Part shown: positions 662-27,118 of the stretch, piece after piece
Numbering within the stretch: position 1 is the stretch's first letter
How the letters are laid out: the number at the start of each line of letters is the position of its first letter
Assembly: GCA_037379885.1 (NCBI GenBank)
Contig: JARRJC010000034.1
Coordinates: 1 to 32,149 of the forward strand
Length of the DNA: 32,149 nucleotides
Reading direction: 5' to 3'
Source of the DNA: Limibacillus sp.
GTDB taxonomy: Bacteria > Pseudomonadota > Alphaproteobacteria > Kiloniellales > CECT-8803
The notes under the pieces: generated by a model
The model's database searches: none
What the model was told of the DNA's origin: nothing
What the model saw: the letters and a program-made list of their open reading frames with translations, nothing else
Translations under genes and position numbers: made by a program

Positions 662-1519
662 TCAGGCTTTCCCCGCCAACTGCTTTTCGAGCGCGAGCAG
701 CGCTTCCTTGCGCGGCAGGCCCCAGCGGTAGCCGCCCAGGCCGCCGTCCGAACGCAGCGCCCGGTGGCAGGGGATCAGCAGCGAGACCGGGTTGGAGCCG
801 CAGGCCGTGCCGACCGCGCGCTGTCCCTGAGGCTGGCCCAGCGCCTCGGCGATCTGCCGGTAGCTGCGGGTCTCGCCCGGCGGGATCGCCAGCAGTTCCT
901 GCCAGACCCGGCGCTGGAAGGCGGTCATGCGGATGTCGAGCGGCAGCTCCAGGTGCGGCGCCTGGCCGGAGAGGTAATCGAGGATGTCCTCGACCGCGGG
1001 GGCGAGCAGCGCGTCGTCCCTCTGGATGACCCGGGCCTGCGGAAACTCTGCGCGCAGTTCGCGCTCCAGCGGCGCGTCCTCCCCCAGGGCGACGAAGCAG
1101 ACGCCCTTGGCGGTGGCGGCGACCAGCAGGCGGCCGAGGGTCGAGTCCACCAGGGTGAAGGCGATCTCCGCGCCCTTGCCGCCCTTGGCGTAGGAGGCGG
1201 GGGTCATGCCGAGCTGGCGCGCCGCGCGCTCGTAGACCCGGCTGGAGGAGCCGAAGCCCGCGCCGTAGGTGGCGCTGGCCACGCCCTCGCCCAGACGCAG
1301 TTCGGCGCGCAGCCGTTCGCCGCGCTTGGCGTCCAGGTACTCGCGCGGGGAGATGCCGAGGTGCTTCTTGAAGAGGCGTTGCAGGTGCCAGGGCGAGAGC
1401 CCGGCGGCCTCGGCCGTTTCGGCCAGCGTGGCGCCTTCCTCCAATCGGCTGTCGAGGAACAGGCAGGCGGCCTTCACGGCCTCAAGGGCGGGTTCGGGTT
1501 TTGTCATGGTGGCGGTCAT
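662..1519 (-). CDS. Ada-like HTH / methylated-DNA-protein cysteine methyltransferase
   Basis: Repairs O6-alkylguanine by transferring the alkyl group to its own cysteine, and probably also binds DNA as a regulator. Of 285 residues, about 10-110 form an AraC-type helix-turn-helix region (LSPWHLQRLFKKHLGISPREY), and about 118-280 form the methyltransferase. The active-site motif PCHR puts the acceptor cysteine at residue 251, preceded by the DNA-binding helix (GETRSYRQIAEALG). The N-terminal zinc domain of E. coli Ada, whose cysteine senses methylphosphotriesters, is absent. How the protein would be switched by methylation is therefore unclear. I chose the ATG at 1519 because it has an AGGA-type ribosome site just upstream. 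An in-frame GTG at 1549 is possible but has no good site. It lies between a SCO1 gene (97 bp upstream) and the metallopeptidase gene. Confidence 0.9.
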   Translation of the reverse strand: MTATMTKPEPALEAVKAACLFLDSRLEEGATLAETAEAAGLSPWHLQRLFKKHLGISPREYLDAKRGERLRAELRLGEGVASATYGAGFGSSSRVYERAARQLGMTPASYAKGGKGAEIAFTLVDSTLGRLLVAATAKGVCFVALGEDAPLERELRAEFPQARVIQRDDALLAPAVEDILDYLSGQAPHLELPLDIRMTAFQRRVWQELLAIPPGETRSYRQIAEALGQPQGQRAVGTACGSNPVSLLIPCHRALRSDGGLGGYRWGLPRKEALLALEKQLAGKA

Positions 1520-1583
1520 GGTTTCCTGGGCTCCGGCGTTGTCGATCACTATCGCTCAACAACGGTGTTAGCCGAAAGCCCCC

Positions 1584-1611
1584 GGCGCGCTCTATCCGAA
1601 GCTTGCGCGCC
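1584..1611 (-). terminator. Possible terminator hairpin after the SCO1 gene
   Basis: A perfect 7-bp GC-rich stem (ggcgcgc / gcgcgcc) with a 14-nt loop lies a few bases past the SCO1 stop. It has no clear T run, so a Rho-independent role is uncertain. Confidence 0.3.
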
Positions 1612-1616
1612 CTCGT

Positions 1617-2258
1617 TTAGCCCGCGATCTTGGCGAGCGCGGCCGCGATCTCCTCCGGCGGCGTGCCGTGGGTGAAGAGCCGTACGAAGTTACCCTCCGG
1701 GTCCATCAGGATGAAGGCGCTGGTGTGGTCCATCAGGTAGTCGTTCTCGCCCCGCTCGTCGCCCTTCTTCGCGAAGACGCGAAAGCCCTTGGCGACGGCG
1801 GCGATCTCCTCCGGCGAGCCGGTCAGGCCGATCAGGCGCGGGTGGAAGTGCACCACGTAGTCGGCGAGGACTTCCGGCGTGTCCCGCTCGGGATCGATGG
1901 TGATGAAGAGCGGTTGGATGCGCGCCGCCGCCTCGGGGTCCTGGCGCTCCAGACGGCTCATCGCCTGACCCATGACCGCCAGGCTGGTGGGACAGACGTC
2001 CGGGCAGAAGGTGTAGCCGAAATAATAGAGCCGGAAGGAGCCTGCGAAGTCGCTGCGCGATACCGTGGAGCCGTCCTGGCTGGTCAGGCTGTAGTCGACG
2101 CCCAGGCTGCTTTCCTGCCCGGCGGTCGAGCTGTCGAAGGAGCCGCCGTCCAGTTGTCCGCGCGGCTGCATGTAGAGCCAGCCCGCGAGGCCCAGCAGCA
2201 GGATCAGCAGGCCGATCAGGAAGATCACCAGGGCGCGGATCATGGGGTTCTGCGGCAT
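1617..2258 (-). CDS. SCO1/SenC/PrrC-family copper chaperone
   Basis: Membrane-anchored thioredoxin-fold protein that supplies copper to, or reduces, the CuA site of cytochrome c oxidase. Of 213 residues, about 8-29 form an N-terminal membrane anchor and the rest should face the periplasm. The copper ligands are visible: CPDVC (Cys85, Cys89) and the distal His178 in MDHTSAF. The ATG at 2258 has a near-perfect site (aaaggagg, 7-nt spacing) that overlaps the end of the upstream phosphatase gene, so the two are probably translated from one mRNA. In Rhodobacter the homologue (senC/prrC) sits in the regB/regA locus. Here regB/regA lie about 2.7 kb away, beyond the cobalamin genes, which suggests a shared respiratory or redox context. 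Confidence 0.9.
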   Translation of the reverse strand: MPQNPMIRALVIFLIGLLILLLGLAGWLYMQPRGQLDGGSFDSSTAGQESSLGVDYSLTSQDGSTVSRSDFAGSFRLYYFGYTFCPDVCPTSLAVMGQAMSRLERQDPEAAARIQPLFITIDPERDTPEVLADYVVHFHPRLIGLTGSPEEIAAVAKGFRVFAKKGDERGENDYLMDHTSAFILMDPEGNFVRLFTHGTPPEEIAAALAKIAG

Positions 2259-16015: not shown

Positions 16016-17776
16016 TCAGGCGGCCAGCAGCCCCTTCTCGTCCAACAGGCGCACGCCCTTGCGGCCCAGAAGCTGCGCCATTTCAGAGCCGCGGATATCG
16101 GGCCGGATGCGCTTGGCGTCTGCGATTGCCTCGCGCGCCTCGGCGTCGCGCCCGGCGTCGGCGGCGATCAGCGCCAGCACCACGCGCGCCATGTAGTTCT
16201 TGTCGTCCCGGCGGCAGGCGAGCCGCGCTTCCTCCAGCGCCTCCTCCTTCTTGTGCAGGCGGAAGAGCGCGTAGGCCAGGTTGGTGCCCCAATAGGCGAG
16301 GCGGTTGTCGAGCGGGGAGAGGCGCATGCCGTGGCGCAGCAGCTCGACCCCCTTGCGCGCCTTGCCGCCCCGGATCTGGGCGACGCCCAGCGCCACCCAG
16401 GCCTGGGCGTTGGAGGGGTCTTCCTCGACGGCGCGCTCCAGGATGCCGATGCCGCGCGCGACGTGGCCCAGGTCGGCCAGCGCGCAGCCCGCGTAACCCA
16501 GCACCACCGAGTTGTAGGCGTCGATGGTCATGGCCCGCTCGGCCGCCTCCACGGCGGTCTCCTCGGCGTTCTCGCCTTCCGGATTCAGATCGAAGAGGTG
16601 GCCGAGCGCGGTCAGGAGCGAGAGGTAGGCGTGGGCCAGCGCGAAGTCCGGCTCGATCTCGATGGCCTTGTTGAGCAGGCGGCTGCCCTCCTCGAAGGTC
16701 TCCCGGTGCCAGCCGCGCAGGGAGAGCAGGCCGTTCGCCTCGCGGTAGAGCGCCCAGGCGTCGCGGTTGGCCGCGGGGCTGCGCTGGATCTGCTGGACCT
16801 CGGCGCGGGCCAGCGCCGGCTCCAGCCGGGCGGCGATCTTCTGGGTGATCTCGTCTTGTATCTCCATGGCCGCCCCGGCGTCGCAGTCGAAGCGCTCGGC
16901 CCAGAGGTGACGCCCGTCGCCGGTGTCGATCAGCTGCACTGTGACGCGCAGGCGCTTGCCGGCCTGACGAATGCTGCCCTCTACCATGTAGCGCACGCCC
17001 AGGGTCTTGCCGACTTCCCGCGCGTCGGGCGACTTGCCCTTGTAGGCGAAGGAGGAGTTGCGCGCGATCACCAGGAAGCCCGGCATCCGGGCCAAGAGGG
17101 TGATGATGTCTTCGGTCAGGCCGTCGGCCAGGAACTCCAGATCATCGTCCTTGGACATGTTGGTGAGCGGCAGCACGGCGATGGAGGGCAAGGAGCCGCC
17201 GGCTTTCTTCAGGTCGCTTTTCCCGGCCTCCTGCCCGGCGAGCCGCTCAAGCGGGTCGAGCCCGCGCCGGCGCCAGGAATAGACGCCGATCGGCCGGGAG
17301 ATGTTCTTGACCTGTTGGGGGCCCAGGTCCTCGAAAGGCGCGTCGATCTCGCCGCGCACCTGATCGTAGGCGCTGGCGGAAATGCAGATGCCCGCGGGCT
17401 CGGCGATCTGCTCCAGCCGCGCGGCGACGTTCACGCCGTCGCCGTAGATGTCCCCGTCGCTCTCGATGATCTCGCCGAGGTTGATGCCGATCCTCAGACA
17501 GAGCGGATCGGCGTTGCCGCAGGCCGCTTCGGAGTCCGCGAGCTTCTCCTGGACCGAGAGCGCGGCCTTGATGGCCGAGATGATCGAGGTGAACTCGACC
17601 AGCGCGCCGTCGCCGGTCAGCTTGACGATGCGCCCGCCCTCGGCCTCCATCCCCGGCGTGAAAATCTCCCGGCGCAGACGGCCCAGCCGGTCGAGCGTGC
17701 CGGGCGTGTCCCTTTCCATCAGGCGGCTGTAGCCCACCACGTCCGCTGCCAGGATCGCCGCGAGGCGTCGTTGCAT
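16016..17776 (-). CDS. Class III adenylate cyclase-TolB-like-TPR protein
   Basis: 586-residue protein in three parts. Residues 4-170 form a class III nucleotide cyclase domain with the metal-binding aspartates Asp12 (AADVVGYSRLM) and Asp56 (KLTGDGALVEF), substrate lysine Lys52, and Asn116/Arg120 in GDGVNVAARLE. All key residues appear intact, so cAMP synthesis is plausible. Residues about 200-330 are a TolB/FlgO-like domain (SIAVLPLTNMS, LADGLTEDIITLLAR). Residues about 345-570 are TPR-like repeats (EIEPDFALAHAYLSLL, DPSNAQAWVALGVAQ). This architecture is frequent in alphaproteobacteria, and the input signal is usually unknown. There is no transmembrane segment. ATG 17776 begins the cyclase motif and has a gagagag-type site. 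The OsmC-like gene follows. Confidence 0.9.
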   Translation of the reverse strand: MQRRLAAILAADVVGYSRLMERDTPGTLDRLGRLRREIFTPGMEAEGGRIVKLTGDGALVEFTSIISAIKAALSVQEKLADSEAACGNADPLCLRIGINLGEIIESDGDIYGDGVNVAARLEQIAEPAGICISASAYDQVRGEIDAPFEDLGPQQVKNISRPIGVYSWRRRGLDPLERLAGQEAGKSDLKKAGGSLPSIAVLPLTNMSKDDDLEFLADGLTEDIITLLARMPGFLVIARNSSFAYKGKSPDAREVGKTLGVRYMVEGSIRQAGKRLRVTVQLIDTGDGRHLWAERFDCDAGAAMEIQDEITQKIAARLEPALARAEVQQIQRSPAANRDAWALYREANGLLSLRGWHRETFEEGSRLLNKAIEIEPDFALAHAYLSLLTALGHLFDLNPEGENAEETAVEAAERAMTIDAYNSVVLGYAGCALADLGHVARGIGILERAVEEDPSNAQAWVALGVAQIRGGKARKGVELLRHGMRLSPLDNRLAYWGTNLAYALFRLHKKEEALEEARLACRRDDKNYMARVVLALIAADAGRDAEAREAIADAKRIRPDIRGSEMAQLLGRKGVRLLDEKGLLAA

Positions 17777-17862
17777 GAAGGCTCTCTCTCGTTTTTCTCC
17801 GTTGCTTTCGATTCTAGGACAGGATTCCCCGCGCGACCAGACAAACAGCGACAGACTGGATG

Positions 17863-17878
17863 CCCTGGCTGGCCAGGG
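17863..17878. promoter_or_regulatory. Inverted repeat between the cyclase and MAPEG genes
   Basis: A perfect 6-bp inverted repeat (ccctgg / ccaggg) with a 4-nt centre lies in the 179-bp divergent region. It could be an operator or a small hairpin. Confidence 0.25.
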
Positions 17879-17955
17879 AAGACGCCCGCCCCTGGTCCAA
17901 GGACCAAACCGGGCTATCCGGCAGGCCTGGCCGAGCGGAGAAGAAGGGGTTTTCG

Positions 17956-18336
17956 ATGCTGTTGCTGATTGCCGCCGTCCTGCTGCTGGCGGCACTCCAG
18001 ATCCTGCTGACGCTGCGCACCATCCGCCAGCGCCGCGCGAACAAGGTTTCCTTGGGCGACGGCGGGGTCGAGTCCCTGCAGCGCGCCATCCGGGCCCACG
18101 CGAACTTTGCCGAGACCGTGCCGCTGGGCCTGGCGCTTGCGCTGCTTCTGGCCTTGCAGGGCTGGGCCTATGCGGGGGGCGGCGTCGCTCTCCTGCTGTT
18201 CGCGGGGCGCGCCTGTCATGCCTGGGGCGTCTCGCGCAGCGCGGAGGACTTCCGCTTTCGCGTGACCGGTATGGCCGTCACCTTCACCAGCTATTTCGCG
18301 GCTGCGGCGCTGCTGATCGGAAGTTTGCTGTCCTGA
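17956..18336 (+). CDS. MAPEG-family-like membrane protein
   Basis: 126-residue membrane protein with four hydrophobic segments (about 1-20, 53-72, 75-90, 104-125). The family signature lies between helices 1 and 2: RRANKVSLGDGG, then LQRAIRAHANFAETVPLGLAL. MAPEG relatives of the Gsta/YecN type bind glutathione, but bacterial members of this length mostly have no proven activity. ATG 17956 has aagggg upstream. It is divergent from the cyclase gene. Confidence 0.85.
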   Translation: MLLLIAAVLLLAALQILLTLRTIRQRRANKVSLGDGGVESLQRAIRAHANFAETVPLGLALALLLALQGWAYAGGGVALLLFAGRACHAWGVSRSAEDFRFRVTGMAVTFTSYFAAAALLIGSLLS

Positions 18337-21701: not shown

Positions 21702-22571
21702 TCACTCCTCCAACTCGCCGAGCAGTGAGGGCGCGAGGCGCCCTTGGTAGCTGAGCGCGTAGGGTCCGGTCATCAGCACGTGGCCGTCGGACTTGCGCCA
21801 CTCGATCTCCAGGTCCTCGCCGGTCTCCTCGTCCAGGCTGCCGTCCACGGTTATGGAGACCTTGCGGTTGGTCAGCCCGCGCCGGACGGCGGCCACGGCG
21901 GCGACGCAGGCGCCCGACCCGCAGGCCAGCGTGATCCCCGCGCCCCGCTCCCAGACGCGAAGGCGCAGCGCGTCCTTGCCAATCAGGCTGGCGACGCCGA
22001 TGTTGGCGCGCTCTGGGAACAGCGGGTGGTGCTCCAGCTCCGGGCCCAGCTCTTCCAGCTCGACCTCCTCGGCGTCCTCCACGAAGAAGACCGCGTGGGG
22101 GTTGCCCATGGAGACGCCGACCGGATCGCTGAGCTCCTCCAGTTCGATCCCCAGGTGCAGCGTGTCGCGCTCCTCGGCGAGAGGGACCTCCTGCCAGCCG
22201 AGGTGCGCTTCGCCCATGTCGACCCGCACCCGTCCGTCATCGAGCAGTTCGCAGGCCAGAAGACCGCCGGCGGTCTCGATGGTGACGGCGTGCGAGTCCG
22301 CCTGCATCATCAAGAGCCAGGCCAGACAGCGCGTGCCGTTGCCGCAGGCCCCGGATTCGCTGCCGTCGCTGTTGAGAAAGCGCGCGAAAGCCGCCGCGTC
22401 ACCGGAGGACGCGCGTTCGATCAGAATCAACTGATCGAACCCCACGCCGCGGTGGCGGTCTGCTATGCGCTGGGCCTGGGCGGGCGAGGGCCGGAAGGGC
22501 TCCTCGCGGGCGTCGATGATCACGAAGTCGTTGCCCAGGCCATGCATCTTCAAGAAGCTCCGGCCCGTCAT
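21702..22571 (-). CDS. dapF: Diaminopimelate epimerase
   Basis: Converts LL- to meso-diaminopimelate for lysine and peptidoglycan synthesis. The 289 residues include both catalytic cysteines, Cys76 in GACGNGTRC and Cys217 in LACGSGACV, as well as the start motif FLKMHGLGNDFVIID and MGNPHAVFF. ATG 22571 is the natural start. An open frame extends 114 bp upstream without similarity. No ribosome site precedes it, and a TATATA box ends 8 bases before the ATG, so the message may be leaderless. It is the first gene of the dapF-mtaB-ftsY operon. Confidence 0.96.
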   Translation of the reverse strand: MTGRSFLKMHGLGNDFVIIDAREEPFRPSPAQAQRIADRHRGVGFDQLILIERASSGDAAAFARFLNSDGSESGACGNGTRCLAWLLMMQADSHAVTIETAGGLLACELLDDGRVRVDMGEAHLGWQEVPLAEERDTLHLGIELEELSDPVGVSMGNPHAVFFVEDAEEVELEELGPELEHHPLFPERANIGVASLIGKDALRLRVWERGAGITLACGSGACVAAVAAVRRGLTNRKVSITVDGSLDEETGEDLEIEWRKSDGHVLMTGPYALSYQGRLAPSLLGELEE

Positions 22572-22578
22572 GGCGCGA

Positions 22579-22607
22579 TATATAGGGCCGCGGCCCGGTG
22601 CGAGTAA
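22579..22607 (-). promoter_or_regulatory. Candidate dapF promoter giving a leaderless mRNA
   Basis: On the minus strand, TTACTC and TATATA are separated by exactly 17 bases. The -10-like box ends 7 bases before the dapF ATG, which places the expected transcription start at the ATG itself. The -35 match is weak. Confidence 0.35.
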
Positions 22608-22672
22608 ATGGCCGATTGGCGCTCTTGGCCCGTGGGCTGTCTTGTCAGACCCTTCTTGAGACGCAATACTTT

Positions 22673-22691
22673 CATTGAATTGCAATCAATG
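22673..22691. promoter_or_regulatory. Operator-like inverted repeat before the kinase-like gene
   Basis: A 6-bp inverted repeat (cattga / tcaatg) with a 7-nt A/T-rich centre overlaps a plausible promoter: TTGAAT at 22675-22680, 17-base spacer, CAGAAT at 22698-22703. It is 41 bp upstream of the start codon at 22732. Confidence 0.35.
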
Positions 22692-22731
22692 AGTTATCAG
22701 AATGTAACCGGAAACCCTGGGGGATTGGACC

Positions 22732-23046
22732 ATGGCGAAGGCAGCGCTTGCGCGGTCCGAACGGCTGCAGCCTGTCGAGGAGGGTGAGCTTCTGGCGCTG
22801 GTCGCCGCTCAGCCGCGAGTGCGCATCTGTTCGCTGGAGTACCGGGGCCGCAAGCTCTGGCTGAAGCACAACAGCGTGGAGATCCTGCATCCCGGACGCC
22901 TGCTGCACTTCATTCTGACGCCGGTCATCTACCCGCGTTTCATGAAGTCTTCCTCCATCACCACCCGCGCCGGCATGGTCCGGCGCGAGACGCGCAAGCT
23001 GAAAGCCTTCGCTCGCGCCGGGCTGCTGCCGCCGGAGTTGATCTGA
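22732..23046 (+). CDS. Kinase-like N-lobe, ends at an in-frame UGA
   Basis: 104-residue reading frame that looks like the N-terminal lobe of a small-molecule or lipid A/RIO-type kinase (WaaP/Kdo-kinase-like fold). Lys45 in RKLWLKHN fits the ATP-binding lysine and Glu86 in RRETRKLKAFARAGLLPPEL fits the helix-C glutamate. It stops at TGA 23044-23046, exactly where a kinase would continue into the hinge strand. The next codons in the same frame encode that continuation (SLLLSDLSISVKHQLRNL). I read this as the 5' part of a longer gene (22732-25437) interrupted by one UGA. It may be a disrupted gene, a read-through product or a sequencing error. ATG 22732 has ggggga about 8 nt upstream. Confidence 0.6.
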   Translation: MAKAALARSERLQPVEEGELLALVAAQPRVRICSLEYRGRKLWLKHNSVEILHPGRLLHFILTPVIYPRFMKSSSITTRAGMVRRETRKLKAFARAGLLPPELI

Positions 23047-23088
23047 CAGCGGGGGCGCAGCCTGCTGCTCAGCGACCTCAGCATCTCG

Positions 23089-25437
23089 GTGAAGCATCAG
23101 CTCCGCAACCTGGACCAGGCGGGCGAGCGGGCCGCGCACGAAGCCTTGCTGGCTCAGCTCTCAGAGGCCCTCGGGCGGTTTCACGCCGCGGGGCTCTGTC
23201 ATGGCCGCCCGCTGGCGCGCGACGCCTACTACCATGAAGGGGAGGTCGGCTTCGGCGACTTCGAGGAAGAGCCAGAGGCGGTCATGCCGCTGGCCGAGGC
23301 GCAGACCCGCGATCTCGCGATCCAGATGCTGGAGACCGTGGCCCTGGCGCGCGACCCTGGGACCCCGGCCCGCTGCTTTGCCGCCTACCGCCGCCATGCG
23401 CCGGAGGAGACGCTGGCGGCGCTTTCCCGGCTGATCCGCTTTTGCGAACGCTTTCTGCCGCTGACCTGTGGCTACTGCCGCTTGTCGCGCTTCCTCTTCG
23501 GGGGCTATGAGCCGCGCGACTTCCTTCGCTTGGAGCGGACACTGGAGTTCCTCAAGACCGCGCTCGGCTGCGAGCGGGACGAGGAACTGCCGTCGGTCGA
23601 CCTGCCGGTCAAGCAGCAGCGCGCCCGGGCGCGTCCAGGGAGTGAGAGCAGCGGGGCGAGGGCGTTGAGCGGCCAGGATTCAAGCAGCAGGGCGAAAGAG
23701 GCGCTGGCGCAGGCCCGCGAATGCCTGTCGGCTCAGCAGCCGGCGAAGGCCCTTGCCGTCTTGCGCCGCGCGCTGGCGGCCGAACCTTCCGAGAAGCGGC
23801 TCTGGCGGCTCTTCGTGCGGGCGCTCTCCCTCCAGCCCAGGGTGGAGGTGACGCGTGGCCTGCCGGGCGAACTGGCGCACTGTCTTGCCGATCCCGAGCT
23901 GGCGACGCCGGAGATCCGCAATCTCGCCAACAATCTCTTCATGGGTCAGGCGTTGATCCAAAAGCTGATGGCGGACTTCGACGGCCTGACGCTGAGGGGC
24001 CTGTTCGAGCGCGCGAAGGACAAGGACCCGGAGCAGGCCCGGCTGTTCGCCAACCTGAAGCACCCGCTGGTCCTGAACCTGCTGACCGGGGAGCGCATCC
24101 CCTACCGGGAGACCGAACTGCTGCTGGCCGCCTTCCGCCGCGCCTTTCTGGAGCAGGCTCTGAAAGGGGAAGGACTGGACGCCGCCCTCTGGCCAGGGGC
24201 GGAGGACTTCCTGGCCGCGCTCGCCTGCCAGTGCTTCATCAACGAGTACATCTATTTCGAGACCGAGGTGGAAAAGGCCGGGGCCGAACGGCTGCTGGCC
24301 GGAGCGGGCGCCGATGCGGGCGCGGCGCGCCTCGCGCTCCTAGGGTGCTATCGCCCTCTGGCCGACTTGCCCTTCGCCGATGACCTGCCCATCGCCGATG
24401 AGGGGGCGGAGAGCGCCGCCGGCCTGGCCGCGCTCAAGCAGAGCGCGCCGGGCCGCAGCCTCCTGCGCCTGCAACTGGAGGAGCCCCGCCGCGAGGCGGC
24501 GCTGCGCGGCACCATCGAGAGCGTGACGCCGGTCGAGGATGCGACCTCCCAGGCCGTGCGCGCGCAGTACGAGGCCAACCCCTATCCGCGCTGGATGGCC
24601 CTGCCGCCCTTGCCAGAGACGGCGCTGGGCGGCGGCGCGCGCGGCTTCCTGAAACGCGCCCTGCCGCTGGCAGGACCGGCGGTTCTGCCGGAGTTGCCGG
24701 AGCACCCGTCTGTGCTGATCGCGGGCTGCGGCACCGGGCGTCAGGCGCTCGACATCGCGCGCCGCCTGCCGGAAGCGAAGATCACCGCTCTGGACCTCAG
24801 CGTCTCCTCGCTCGCCTACGCCAAGCGAAAGGCGGAGGGGGCGGGGGTGGAGAACGTCAGCTTCGTGCAGGGCGACCTGCTGGCGCTGACCGAAACGGGC
24901 GGCGCCGGATTCGACATGATCTTCTGCTCGGGCGTGCTGCACCACCTGGCGGAGCCGGAGGCGGGGCTGGCGGCCATCACCTCACGGCTGAAGCCGGGCG
25001 GGGTGATGAAGCTGGCGCTCTACAGCCGCGAGGCGCGCGCCTTCTTGAAGCCCGCGCGCGAGAAGCTCGCGGCGCTGGGCCTTTGCGCCGACGCGGAGGG
25101 CATCCGCCAGGCCCGCTTCGCGCTCTTCAACCTGCCCGAGGGCGACCCGGCGCGCGCCGTCACGGCCTGGCTCGACTTCTACAGCCTCTCGGACTGCCGC
25201 GATGCGCTCTTCCATGTGCAGGAACGCGACTACCACGCGTTGGAGTTGGCGGAATACCTCGCGACCCAGGACCTGACGTTCCTCGGCTTCCAGGGCCTGC
25301 CGCGTGAGACGGCCCAAGCCTACCGCGCGCGCTTCCCGCAAGACCCCGAGGCCCGCGACCTCACTAACTGGGCCGCCTTCGAACCCGACCACCCCCTCAC
25401 CTTCGTCGCCATGTACCAGTTCTGGGTCAGCCGCTAG
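23089..25437 (+). CDS. Kinase C-lobe + helical/TPR-like + SAM methyltransferase fusion
   Basis: 782-residue frame in phase with the preceding kinase-like piece. Residues 1-160 continue the kinase: hinge and catalytic region (ALGRFHAAGLCHGRP, then GEVGFGDFEEE in the place of the DFG-type metal loop). About 165-205 is a Ser/Gln/Arg-rich linker. About 205-470 is helical, starting with a TPR-like pair (CLSAQQPAKALAVLRRALAA). About 480-782 is a class I methyltransferase introduced by VRAQYEANPYPRW, with motif I LIAGCGTGRQALDIA, acidic ALDLSVSSLAYAK, QGDLLAL and FCSGVLHHLAEPEAGL. Substrates are unknown. The first start codon, GTG 23089, has no ribosome site and lies inside the kinase fold, so an independent start is doubtful. 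A later start such as ATG 23284 is possible if only the methyltransferase part is expressed. Confidence 0.7.
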   Translation: MKHQLRNLDQAGERAAHEALLAQLSEALGRFHAAGLCHGRPLARDAYYHEGEVGFGDFEEEPEAVMPLAEAQTRDLAIQMLETVALARDPGTPARCFAAYRRHAPEETLAALSRLIRFCERFLPLTCGYCRLSRFLFGGYEPRDFLRLERTLEFLKTALGCERDEELPSVDLPVKQQRARARPGSESSGARALSGQDSSSRAKEALAQARECLSAQQPAKALAVLRRALAAEPSEKRLWRLFVRALSLQPRVEVTRGLPGELAHCLADPELATPEIRNLANNLFMGQALIQKLMADFDGLTLRGLFERAKDKDPEQARLFANLKHPLVLNLLTGERIPYRETELLLAAFRRAFLEQALKGEGLDAALWPGAEDFLAALACQCFINEYIYFETEVEKAGAERLLAGAGADAGAARLALLGCYRPLADLPFADDLPIADEGAESAAGLAALKQSAPGRSLLRLQLEEPRREAALRGTIESVTPVEDATSQAVRAQYEANPYPRWMALPPLPETALGGGARGFLKRALPLAGPAVLPELPEHPSVLIAGCGTGRQALDIARRLPEAKITALDLSVSSLAYAKRKAEGAGVENVSFVQGDLLALTETGGAGFDMIFCSGVLHHLAEPEAGLAAITSRLKPGGVMKLALYSREARAFLKPAREKLAALGLCADAEGIRQARFALFNLPEGDPARAVTAWLDFYSLSDCRDALFHVQERDYHALELAEYLATQDLTFLGFQGLPRETAQAYRARFPQDPEARDLTNWAAFEPDHPLTFVAMYQFWVSR

Positions 25438-25464
25438 CGGGCTGGTACGGGCCAACCCGATCGC

Positions 25465-25494
25465 AGGTTTGTAATCCAAACCTTCTTCCTCTTG
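25465..25494 (+). terminator. Intrinsic terminator after the methyltransferase gene
   Basis: A perfect 7-bp stem (aggtttg / caaacct) with loop taatc lies 28 bp past the stop and is followed by tcttcctctt. Confidence 0.5.
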
Positions 25495-25520
25495 ACGCCC
25501 CGGTTCCGCGCGCGTAAAAC
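25492..25520 (+). promoter_or_regulatory. Candidate ffh promoter
   Basis: TTGACG at 25492-25497 and TAAAAC at 25515-25520 are separated by 17 bases, a good sigma-70-like match directly after the upstream terminator. It would start the ffh-rpsP-rimM-trmD-rplS mRNA with a leader of roughly 140 nt. Confidence 0.5.
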
Positions 25521-25666
25521 CGCGGCGTTCAGTTTCAGGGCCGCTTTTTTCGGTTCCGAGGAGCCCCATCAGTCCGCGAGTGTCGCGCACTGGTGCGTTT
25601 GTGCTTTGGGGTGTTTCGGGGAGGGGCGGCGGCCTTAACGAGGGAAGAGAAGGGGCGCGTTTAGCC

Positions 25667-27118
25667 TTGTTCGAGTCTTTGCAGGAACGCCTGGGCGGCG
25701 TCTTCGACAGCCTGAAGCGCCGCGGCGCGCTGAGTGAGGCCGATGTCTCCGAAGCGCTGCGCGAGGTGCGCGTGGCGCTGCTCGAGGCCGACGTCGCCCT
25801 GCCGGTGGTCAAGGACTTCGTCGAGCAGGTGAAGGCCAAGGCCGTGGGCCAGGAGGTCCTGCGCTCGGTCCAGCCCGGCCAGCAGGTGGTCAAGATCGTC
25901 CACGACGAGCTGGTCGCCATGCTGGGCGGCGCGCCGGAGGAGGGCCAGGAGGGAGGCAAACAGCCGCCGCAGCCCGGGCAGTCGCCTTCTCTCGGCCTCA
26001 ACCTCAAGGCCAGCCCGCCGGTGCCGATCCTGATGGTCGGCCTCCAGGGTTCGGGCAAGACCACCACCACCGCCAAGATCGCCAAGCGCCTGACTGAGCG
26101 CGAGAAGAAGAAGGTCCTGATGGCCTCCCTCGACGTGCGCCGCCCGGCCGCGCAGGAGCAGTTGGCGCTGCTGGGTCTCCAGGCCTCGGTCGCCACGTTG
26201 CCGATCGTGCCCATGGAGAACCCGGTGATGATCACCCGCCGCGCGCTGCAGACCGCGCGCCGCGAGGGCTACGATGTGGTGCTGCTGGACACCGCCGGGC
26301 GTCTGGCCATCGACGAGGAGCTGATGGCCGAGGTCGCCGCCGTGCGCGACGCCGCCCAACCGGCGGAGACGCTGCTGGTGGCCGACGCCATGACCGGTCA
26401 GGACGCGGTCAACGTCGCCAGCGCCTTCAACGAGAAGGTCGGGCTGACCGGCCTGGTGCTGACCCGCGTGGACGGTGATGCGCGCGGTGGTGCGGCGCTT
26501 TCCATGCGCGCGGTCACCGGCTGTCCCATCAAGCTGATCGGCACGGGCGAGCAGATCGACAAGATCGAGGTCTTCCACCCCGAGCGCATCGCCGGGCGCA
26601 TCCTCGGCATGGGCGACGTGGTCTCCCTGGTCGAGAAGGCCGCCGAGACCATCGAGCAGGACGAGGCCGAGAAGCTAGCCAAGAAGATGCAGGCGGGCAA
26701 GTTCGACATGGACGACTTCGCCTCCCAGCTGCGTCAGATGCTCAAGATGGGCGGGCTCTCCGGCATGATGGGCCTGCTGCCCGGCGTCGGTAAGATCAAG
26801 GACCAGCTGAAAGACGCCAAGATCGACGACTCCATGGTCAACAAGCAGCTCGCGATCATCTCCTCCATGACTAAGCAGGAGAGAAAGCGCCCCGAACTCA
26901 TCAAGGCCAGCCGCAAGCAGCGCATCGCCAAGGGCTCCGGCACCACGGTGCAGGAGGTCAACAAGCTGATGAAGCAGCACATGGAGGCCAACCGCATGAT
27001 GAAGAAGGTCAAGAAGATGGGCAAAAAGGGCCTGATGCGTCACGGCCTGCCCGGCATGCCGCCCGGCGGCATGGGCGGTGGGGGCATGGGCGGCGGCGGC
27101 CGCGGCCCCTTCGGCTGA
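25667..27118 (+). CDS. ffh: Signal recognition particle GTPase Ffh (TTG start)
   Basis: SRP protein that binds signal sequences and 4.5S RNA and docks with FtsY. The 483 residues comprise an N domain ([32 protein letters not shown]), a G domain with [10 protein letters not shown] (125 on), [27 protein letters not shown] and [12 protein letters not shown], and an M domain rich in methionine. The tail is Gly/Met-rich ([16 protein letters not shown]). About 20 extra Gly/Gln/Pro-rich residues ([20 protein letters not shown]) sit between the N and G domains. The TTG at 25667 is chosen because homologues begin MF(E/D)SL there. The upstream frame (GTG 25580) would add 29 unlike residues. Confidence 0.95.

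Follow-up and report, generated by a model that had tools for sequence, protein, structure and literature searches.

According to Belinky et al. (2021; PMC7918605), in-frame stop codons under purifying selection are widespread in bacteria; most of them are described as short-lived, and many of the raw cases as artefacts. Forms of tRNA-Trp able to read UGA have also been described, having a 4-bp anticodon stem or carrying A9C or G24A variants (PMC13092985). The case considered here lies in the window, that is, the whole stretch of 32,149 nucleotides analysed from the alphaproteobacterium Limibacillus sp. (assembly GCA_037379885.1, contig JARRJC010000034.1, positions 1 to 32,149 of the forward strand), where a frame apparently coding for a kinase-like domain, a TPR region and a methyltransferase is interrupted by one TGA.

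Organization of the locus

Translated, 22732-25437 (+) gives 902 codons interrupted by one stop, the TGA at 23044-23046 (residue 105 of 901, next base C), as the preliminary description had it when it held the frame to be interrupted by this codon alone. The natural stop of the fusion frame is the TAG at 25435-25437; between 23047 and 25434 the frame runs without any stop, and no stop or frameshift other than the TGA was found in 22732-25437. The features of the locus are as follows.

21702..22571, minus strand: dapF, divergent neighbour (TIGR00652, 249 bits)
22642..22670, plus strand: promoter-like match preceding the gene (agreeing with the consensus at 9 of 12 bases)
22732..23043, plus strand: first part of the putative kinase domain, codons 1-104, with K45 and E86 (codon score, alignment of 27 homologues, SD-like energy at the start)
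23044..23046, plus strand: in-frame TGA, at a turn position that varies in the kinase alignment (translation, column composition)
23047..23589, plus strand: remainder of the putative kinase domain, with hinge, HGR...RD and DFE (codon score over 23047-23448, profile match)
23089..23091, plus strand: GTG, first possible start past the stop, within the kinase domain
23590..23700, plus strand: linker, with weak coding signal (40-codon window at 23590, -0.12)
23665..23667, plus strand: TTG in the linker, candidate internal start for the TPR-methyltransferase (SD-like stretch weak)
23701..25437, plus strand: TPR region and class I SAM methyltransferase (PF13649, 6.9e-21; TPR_14, 19.1 bits, cut-off 23.5)
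25679..27118, plus strand: ffh, next gene downstream (PF00448, PF02978)

The fusion gene is flanked by dapF-mtaB-ftsY and by ffh-rpsP-rimM-trmD-rplS. In the three relatives having both dapF and ffh in the stretch compared (G028, G005 and G001, the last being the sole other genome of the family among those searched; G013, whose ffh falls outside the stretch, was not counted), the order of the flanking genes is kept and the dapF-ffh interval differs: it measures about 0.6 kb in G028 and 1.0 kb in G005, and is filled by 4.5 kb of unrelated ORFs in G001. Since the interval varies between relatives, the fusion gene most likely belongs to the accessory genes and occupies a variable site.

Some other elements of the region may be recorded. 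Just upstream of ffh, at 25552-25603 (+), the window matches the Rfam ffh sRNA family RF01793 (37.5 bits, gathering score 35), and this stretch is the only clearly similar DNA between the window and G001 in the dapF-ffh interval. Within the G001 interval (L160, 6595-9609) several small look-alike ORFs, with ITGFT and FHL...P motifs recognized by eye, perhaps represent a repeated family. Elsewhere in the window, 16016-17995 (-) encodes an adenylate/guanylate cyclase domain with TPR repeats (PF00211, TPR models).

Coding signal and start codons

A codon log-odds model was trained on 400 kb of the organism's own genome (20 stretches of 20 kb, 308 ORFs selected; GC content of the genome 66%). The fusion frame scores +0.20 per codon before the stop, +0.21 at 23047-23448, +0.07 in the linker and +0.27 to +0.30 in the TPR-methyltransferase, to be compared with a mean of 0.25 (sd 0.08) for the genes of the genome; over the same segments, scores range from -0.39 to -0.64 in the two other frames of the same strand and do not exceed 0.08 on the opposite strand, with a single 40-codon window, at 23140, in which an opposite frame beats the fusion frame (0.20 vs 0.15). 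GC3 is 0.85 before the TGA and 0.87 just after it. The frame 22732-25437 is more than a chance open frame, and its codon usage is gene-like on both sides of the TGA.

The promoter-like match at 22642..22670 is the only one in 22400-25700, where shuffled sequences average 0.2. The ATG at 22732 has an SD-like energy of -8.4 kcal/mol, a strength equalled at 5-10% of in-frame positions (5% quantile -8.6, 10% quantile -6.9). The claim that the first start codon past the stop lies inside the fold and has no ribosome site holds: the GTG at 23089 corresponds to residue 120 and its SD-like energy is -0.2 kcal/mol; for the TTG at 23665 the value is -6.6, between the 10% and the 25% quantiles of in-frame positions. 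From -30 to +40 bases around the TGA, the sole start codon is the TTG at 23038, in frame and before the stop; since this codon lies upstream and the GTG at 23089 lacks an SD sequence, reinitiation at the TGA is not set up.

The kinase-like domain and its homologues

Kinase-like sequence had been proposed to flow across the stop, and the alignment agrees: K45 and E86 precede the TGA, LLLSDLS, HGR...RD and DFE follow it. A protein-kinase-like set of residues (K45, E86, H151, R163, D176, E178) can be recognized in the alignment; the conserved Lys, the helix-C Glu, HGR...RD and DFE are what we take to be the kinase motifs. The arrangement of two ordinary genes separated by an intergenic gap at the stop was rejected, since the TGA sits in the middle of the aligned domain.

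Similarity to known families is weak. With the stop written as X, the read-through protein matches PF06293 (Kdo/WaaP kinase) at 12.8 bits over residues 85-177, below the gathering score of 21.3 and hence outside the family, and neither half alone matches PF06293 at E <= 1. When nine of the homologues described below were searched, one (L061) passed the PF06293 threshold (22.6 bits) and also that of PF01636 (27.8 bits), two fell below the PF06293 cut-off, and six gave no match to it at E <= 0.01; the Bud32 model TIGR03724 matches five of eight homologues, with a maximum of 36.8 bits vs a cut-off of 125. A profile made from the alignment, the window row included, finds a serine/threonine kinase as its best match among solved structures (1.3e-8), followed by TTK, RIO3, an aminoglycoside phosphotransferase and TP53RK at 1e-5 to 2e-4; a single-sequence structure model of the kinase, at a pLDDT of 38.8, is too poor to be of use. 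To judge from these matches, the TGA falls inside what appears to be a small Kdo/WaaP/Bud32-like kinase domain. Its substrate might, at a guess from the faint similarity to Kdo/WaaP kinases, be a surface polysaccharide or lipid.

The read-through kinase region matches 7 other genomes of the 289 examined at the level of the class, and 23 other genomes of 398 in the phylum, 2 of them already in the class set; it was found in none of the others among the 61 order-level genomes searched, and the own genome holds no second match to the kinase profile. From the 28 loci collected, one (L070) was left out for its poor alignment over much of the domain. All of the 27 remaining homologues lack a stop inside the match and have a residue in the column of the TGA: Ala in 12, Asp in 4, Gly in 3, Glu and Cys in 2 each, and His, Tyr, Met and Leu in 1 each. 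A profile built from these 27 sequences, the window protein being left out, scores 126.5 bits with the read-through protein and 89.9 with the post-stop frame alone. The window protein keeps all five invariant columns (W43, E86, H151, D176 and D194 in its numbering) and agrees with the consensus in 13 of the 15 columns that 22 or more homologues conserve; the exceptions are position 117, with S in place of G, and position 196, with A in place of L. Its leave-one-out score of 128.9 bits is the fourth lowest of 28, three homologues scoring 99-126 and the remaining 24 scoring 172-280; judged by its sequence, the putative kinase of the window is divergent or slightly eroded, the low score fitting both.

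The methyltransferase half and the fusion

The only Pfam family found with confidence on the fusion protein is that of the methyltransferase, which belongs to PF13649 (class I SAM methyltransferase) with 75.2 bits vs a cut-off of 27. Strong TPR-methyltransferase frames numbered 19, that is, 14 from relatives of the order and 5 from named records; in the 17 with the start in view (the other two, L047 and L049, run off the contig start) the kinase profile gives no match at E <= 0.01. Conversely, the 27 kinase homologues contain no TPR-methyltransferase match at E <= 1e-20: in 26 of them the open frame holding the kinase has 238-375 codons, and in L057 the kinase occupies the end of a frame of 880 codons, 701 of which were examined and gave no Pfam family. 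Two of the TPR-methyltransferase relatives, L047 and L048, 32-39% identical, come from records titled Candidatus Kuenenia and Prochlorococcus, which suggests either wide transfer or misassigned contigs.

Searches with the full-length protein gave a similar picture. Matches were found in 60 of 385 class genomes, the own one included (two candidates being scored per genome), and among those listed in other genomes none begins before residue 262. The kinase profile matches 19 of the same number of class genomes, again including the own one, with at most six candidates scored each; in the other genomes, the frames holding the 11 strong places have 247-368 codons, and the 8 weak places cover part of the profile only and fall in frames of 345-621 codons. 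Of 72,556 plasmid records, 47 match the full query, none over 80% of its length, and the ten matches listed are all to the methyltransferase half. No ortholog of the whole fusion that could serve for dN/dS was found in the order and class genomes searched. Within the candidate limits of these searches, the kinase-TPR-methyltransferase fusion is seen only in this genome, and in the genomes searched kinase and TPR-methyltransferase are otherwise separate.

Signals and machinery for recoding

A UGA followed by C is a leaky context in bacteria, and this had been put forward as a hint of read-through. The context itself is as described; as a mark of leakiness it carries little weight, since TGAC is an ordinary terminator in this genome: TGA terminates 154 of 280 called genes, and TGAC, with 53, is the commonest quartet, followed by TGAG with 50. 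In a cruder gene set TGAC (26 of 166) is second to TGAG (34), so that its narrow lead over TGAG is absent from one of the two sets.

A search of the genome for tRNA-Sec gave at best 46.5 bits, under the cut-off of 47, and the top candidate is a tRNA-Ser with anticodon tga (ARAGORN); the SelB model reached at best 191 bits vs a cut-off of 242.25, in a 398-codon frame that, by its size, is presumably EF-Tu. With both scores below cut-off and Cys in the TGA column of just 2 of the 27 homologues, the gene cannot be counted among selenoprotein genes. None of the 42 tRNA genes found has the anticodon UCA, an absence which is not absolute because the draft lacks some tRNAs (the set is without tRNA-Asn). 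The tRNA-Trp has the anticodon CCA, and inspection by eye shows A9, G24 and an anticodon stem of 5 bp; a tRNA-Trp with a 4-bp stem as the reader of UGA is therefore unsupported. No stimulating hairpin was detected in the 100 bases from the stop (z +1.06, with 172 of 200 shuffles folding at least as well), and Rfam has no match at the TGA at 23044. With this z value, no UCA anticodon and an ordinary tRNA-Trp, the site does not qualify as read-through by RNA structure or by a specialised tRNA. Programmed recoding has little support: the TGA column is variable, and neither machinery nor signal was found.

Other interrupted genes and the age of the lesion

The assembly is a draft of 128 contigs, 99% complete. 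In the 400-kb sample and the window, stops having coding-like stretches of 60 codons on both sides in one frame number 29, of which 3 lie inside the window and 26 outside. Seven of the latter, chosen for the least clear downstream starts, were checked with Pfam, and the other 19 were judged by eye from their start codons; none of the seven splits a domain by one stop: in five the family before the stop is not the one after it, and in two (L103 and L093) a family is found before the stop only. Outside the 400-kb sample, on the 5.2-kb contig C86, a gene at 1141-1962 (-) (L004) has its class I methyltransferase domain split by a TAG at 1573-1575: PF13649 scores 75.7 bits across the TAG and 56.5 on the first part, the second part alone giving nothing, and NCBIfam models show the same pattern below their cut-offs. 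Since this gene is cut by a TAG, single-stop interruptions in the genome are not specific to UGA.

About 2.7% of the possible single substitutions in the fusion frame create a stop (transitions being assumed to weigh double). The absence of a second stop limits the neutral change since inactivation to about 4% or less, and adding the absence of frameshifts lowers the bound to about 0.6-1.4% if each substitution is assumed to be accompanied by 0.05-0.15 frameshifting indels. Three readings fit these bounds, namely a young lesion, a gene that selection still maintains, or an erroneous stop; recency is inferred from the absence of further damage, no ortholog with a sense codon at the site being available.

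Nature of the interruption

Insertion of selenocysteine, or a reassigned UGA, would agree with the identity of the stop and with the Cys found at this column in two homologues; given the SelB and tRNA-Sec scores reported above and the regular use of TGA as a terminator, it is, as far as a draft 99% complete can show, almost certainly not the explanation. Read-through of a leaky or regulated UGA by a near-cognate tRNA, giving a little full-length kinase-methyltransferase with the stop kept by selection, is in our view quite unlikely. In its favour, coding signal and conserved residues are present on both sides, the variable turn in which the stop lies should tolerate any residue, and bacterial in-frame stops with dN/dS below 1 have been reported as widespread; the same report has such stops as mostly short-lived (PMC7918605), however, TGAC is here as common as any natural stop, a stimulating fold and a suppressor-type tRNA were not found, and the UGA is shared by no relative found in the genomes searched, for which reason its conservation cannot be shown. 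It is very improbable that the UGA works as a maintained leaky valve, at which most ribosomes would halt after residue 104, few would make the bifunctional enzyme and internal initiation would give the methyltransferase alone, the stop thereby setting the ratio of kinase-linked to free methyltransferase.

If the TGA arose from a wrong base call or from faulty assembly, or if the assembler chose the allele of a minority strain, the gene of the organism would be intact; one substitution is enough in a draft of this fragmentation, both halves look conserved, and the second single-stop gene sits on a contig of only 5.2 kb. Nevertheless, real nonsense alleles probably outnumber substitution errors in drafts of this kind, and at the 7 sites checked out of the 26 candidates in the 400-kb sample no other domain is split by a single stop; we regard an error as unlikely. 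The locus could also give two independent products, with a meaningless 104-residue piece, a TPR-methyltransferase that is a gene of its own starting in frame, and a kinase that is decayed upstream sequence, an account which overlaps with the preferred one given below. TPR-methyltransferases are indeed separate genes in relatives, the coding signal is weak in the linker and the TTG at 23665 has a moderate SD-like stretch; yet 23047-25434 is in frame without a stop, the post-stop kinase part retains coding signal, and SD-like stretches of that strength are common by chance, all of which makes this account highly improbable. The interruption is probably best explained by a recent nonsense mutation at codon 105 of a lineage-specific accessory kinase-TPR-methyltransferase fusion, with the kinase half reduced to a young pseudogene or to a null allele that is segregating. 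Sequencing error, young pseudogene and read-through were the right three options to consider at the outset; that earlier assessment is partly supported as a whole, and a recent nonsense mutation is the simplest of the options remaining.

Such a mutation would have struck the accessory fusion gene once, at codon 105. Ribosomes starting at 22732 would then release a 104-residue fragment and, because this fragment is devoid of the catalytic loop, kinase activity would be lost or nearly lost; the TPR-methyltransferase half would be made, if at all, at a reduced level, from internal starts (such as the TTG at 23665) or by basal misreading of the UGA, and the gene would be, in its kinase half, a pseudogene of recent origin or else a null allele still segregating. 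The stop comes early (residue 105 of 901) and the 27 kinase homologues are uninterrupted, none of them being an ortholog of the whole fusion. In favour of a nonsense mutation are the coding signal and conserved residues on both sides of the TGA together with these uninterrupted homologues, the interval that varies in the three relatives compared, as with a dispensable gene, and the C86 gene of the same genome, likewise split by one TAG; against it, there is no sign of decay past one stop, the lost columns 117 and 196 could be ordinary divergence, and an error would look identical.

Comparison with known systems

The putative kinase resembles the PF06293 and TIGR03724 (Bud32-type) families in that profile matches, though weak, link the read-through protein to the former and its homologues to both; it differs from them in that the read-through protein stays below the PF06293 cut-off, the Bud32 matches of the homologues are far below 125 bits, and the window kinase is joined to a methyltransferase. 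The other half is about 31-47% identical, over the methyltransferase, to the TPR-class I SAM methyltransferases of alphaproteobacteria (e.g., those of Azospirillum plasmids), which, unlike the window protein, have no kinase domain at E <= 0.01 in 17 of 19 frames, those with the start in view. The fusion, unseen in the other genomes searched here, may deserve annotation. Read-through, if shown, would make the locus a rare example of a chromosomal enzyme gene switched by UGA; if it is a recent nonsense allele, it is an ordinary event, yet one clean case for the question of pseudogene versus tolerated leaky stop in bacteria. The single-stop genes of Belinky et al. (2021; PMC7918605) are the closest parallel: their stops are shared by at least two species and accompanied by dN/dS, whereas the case of the window comes from one genome, and common to both is a conserved gene undamaged except for one in-frame stop.
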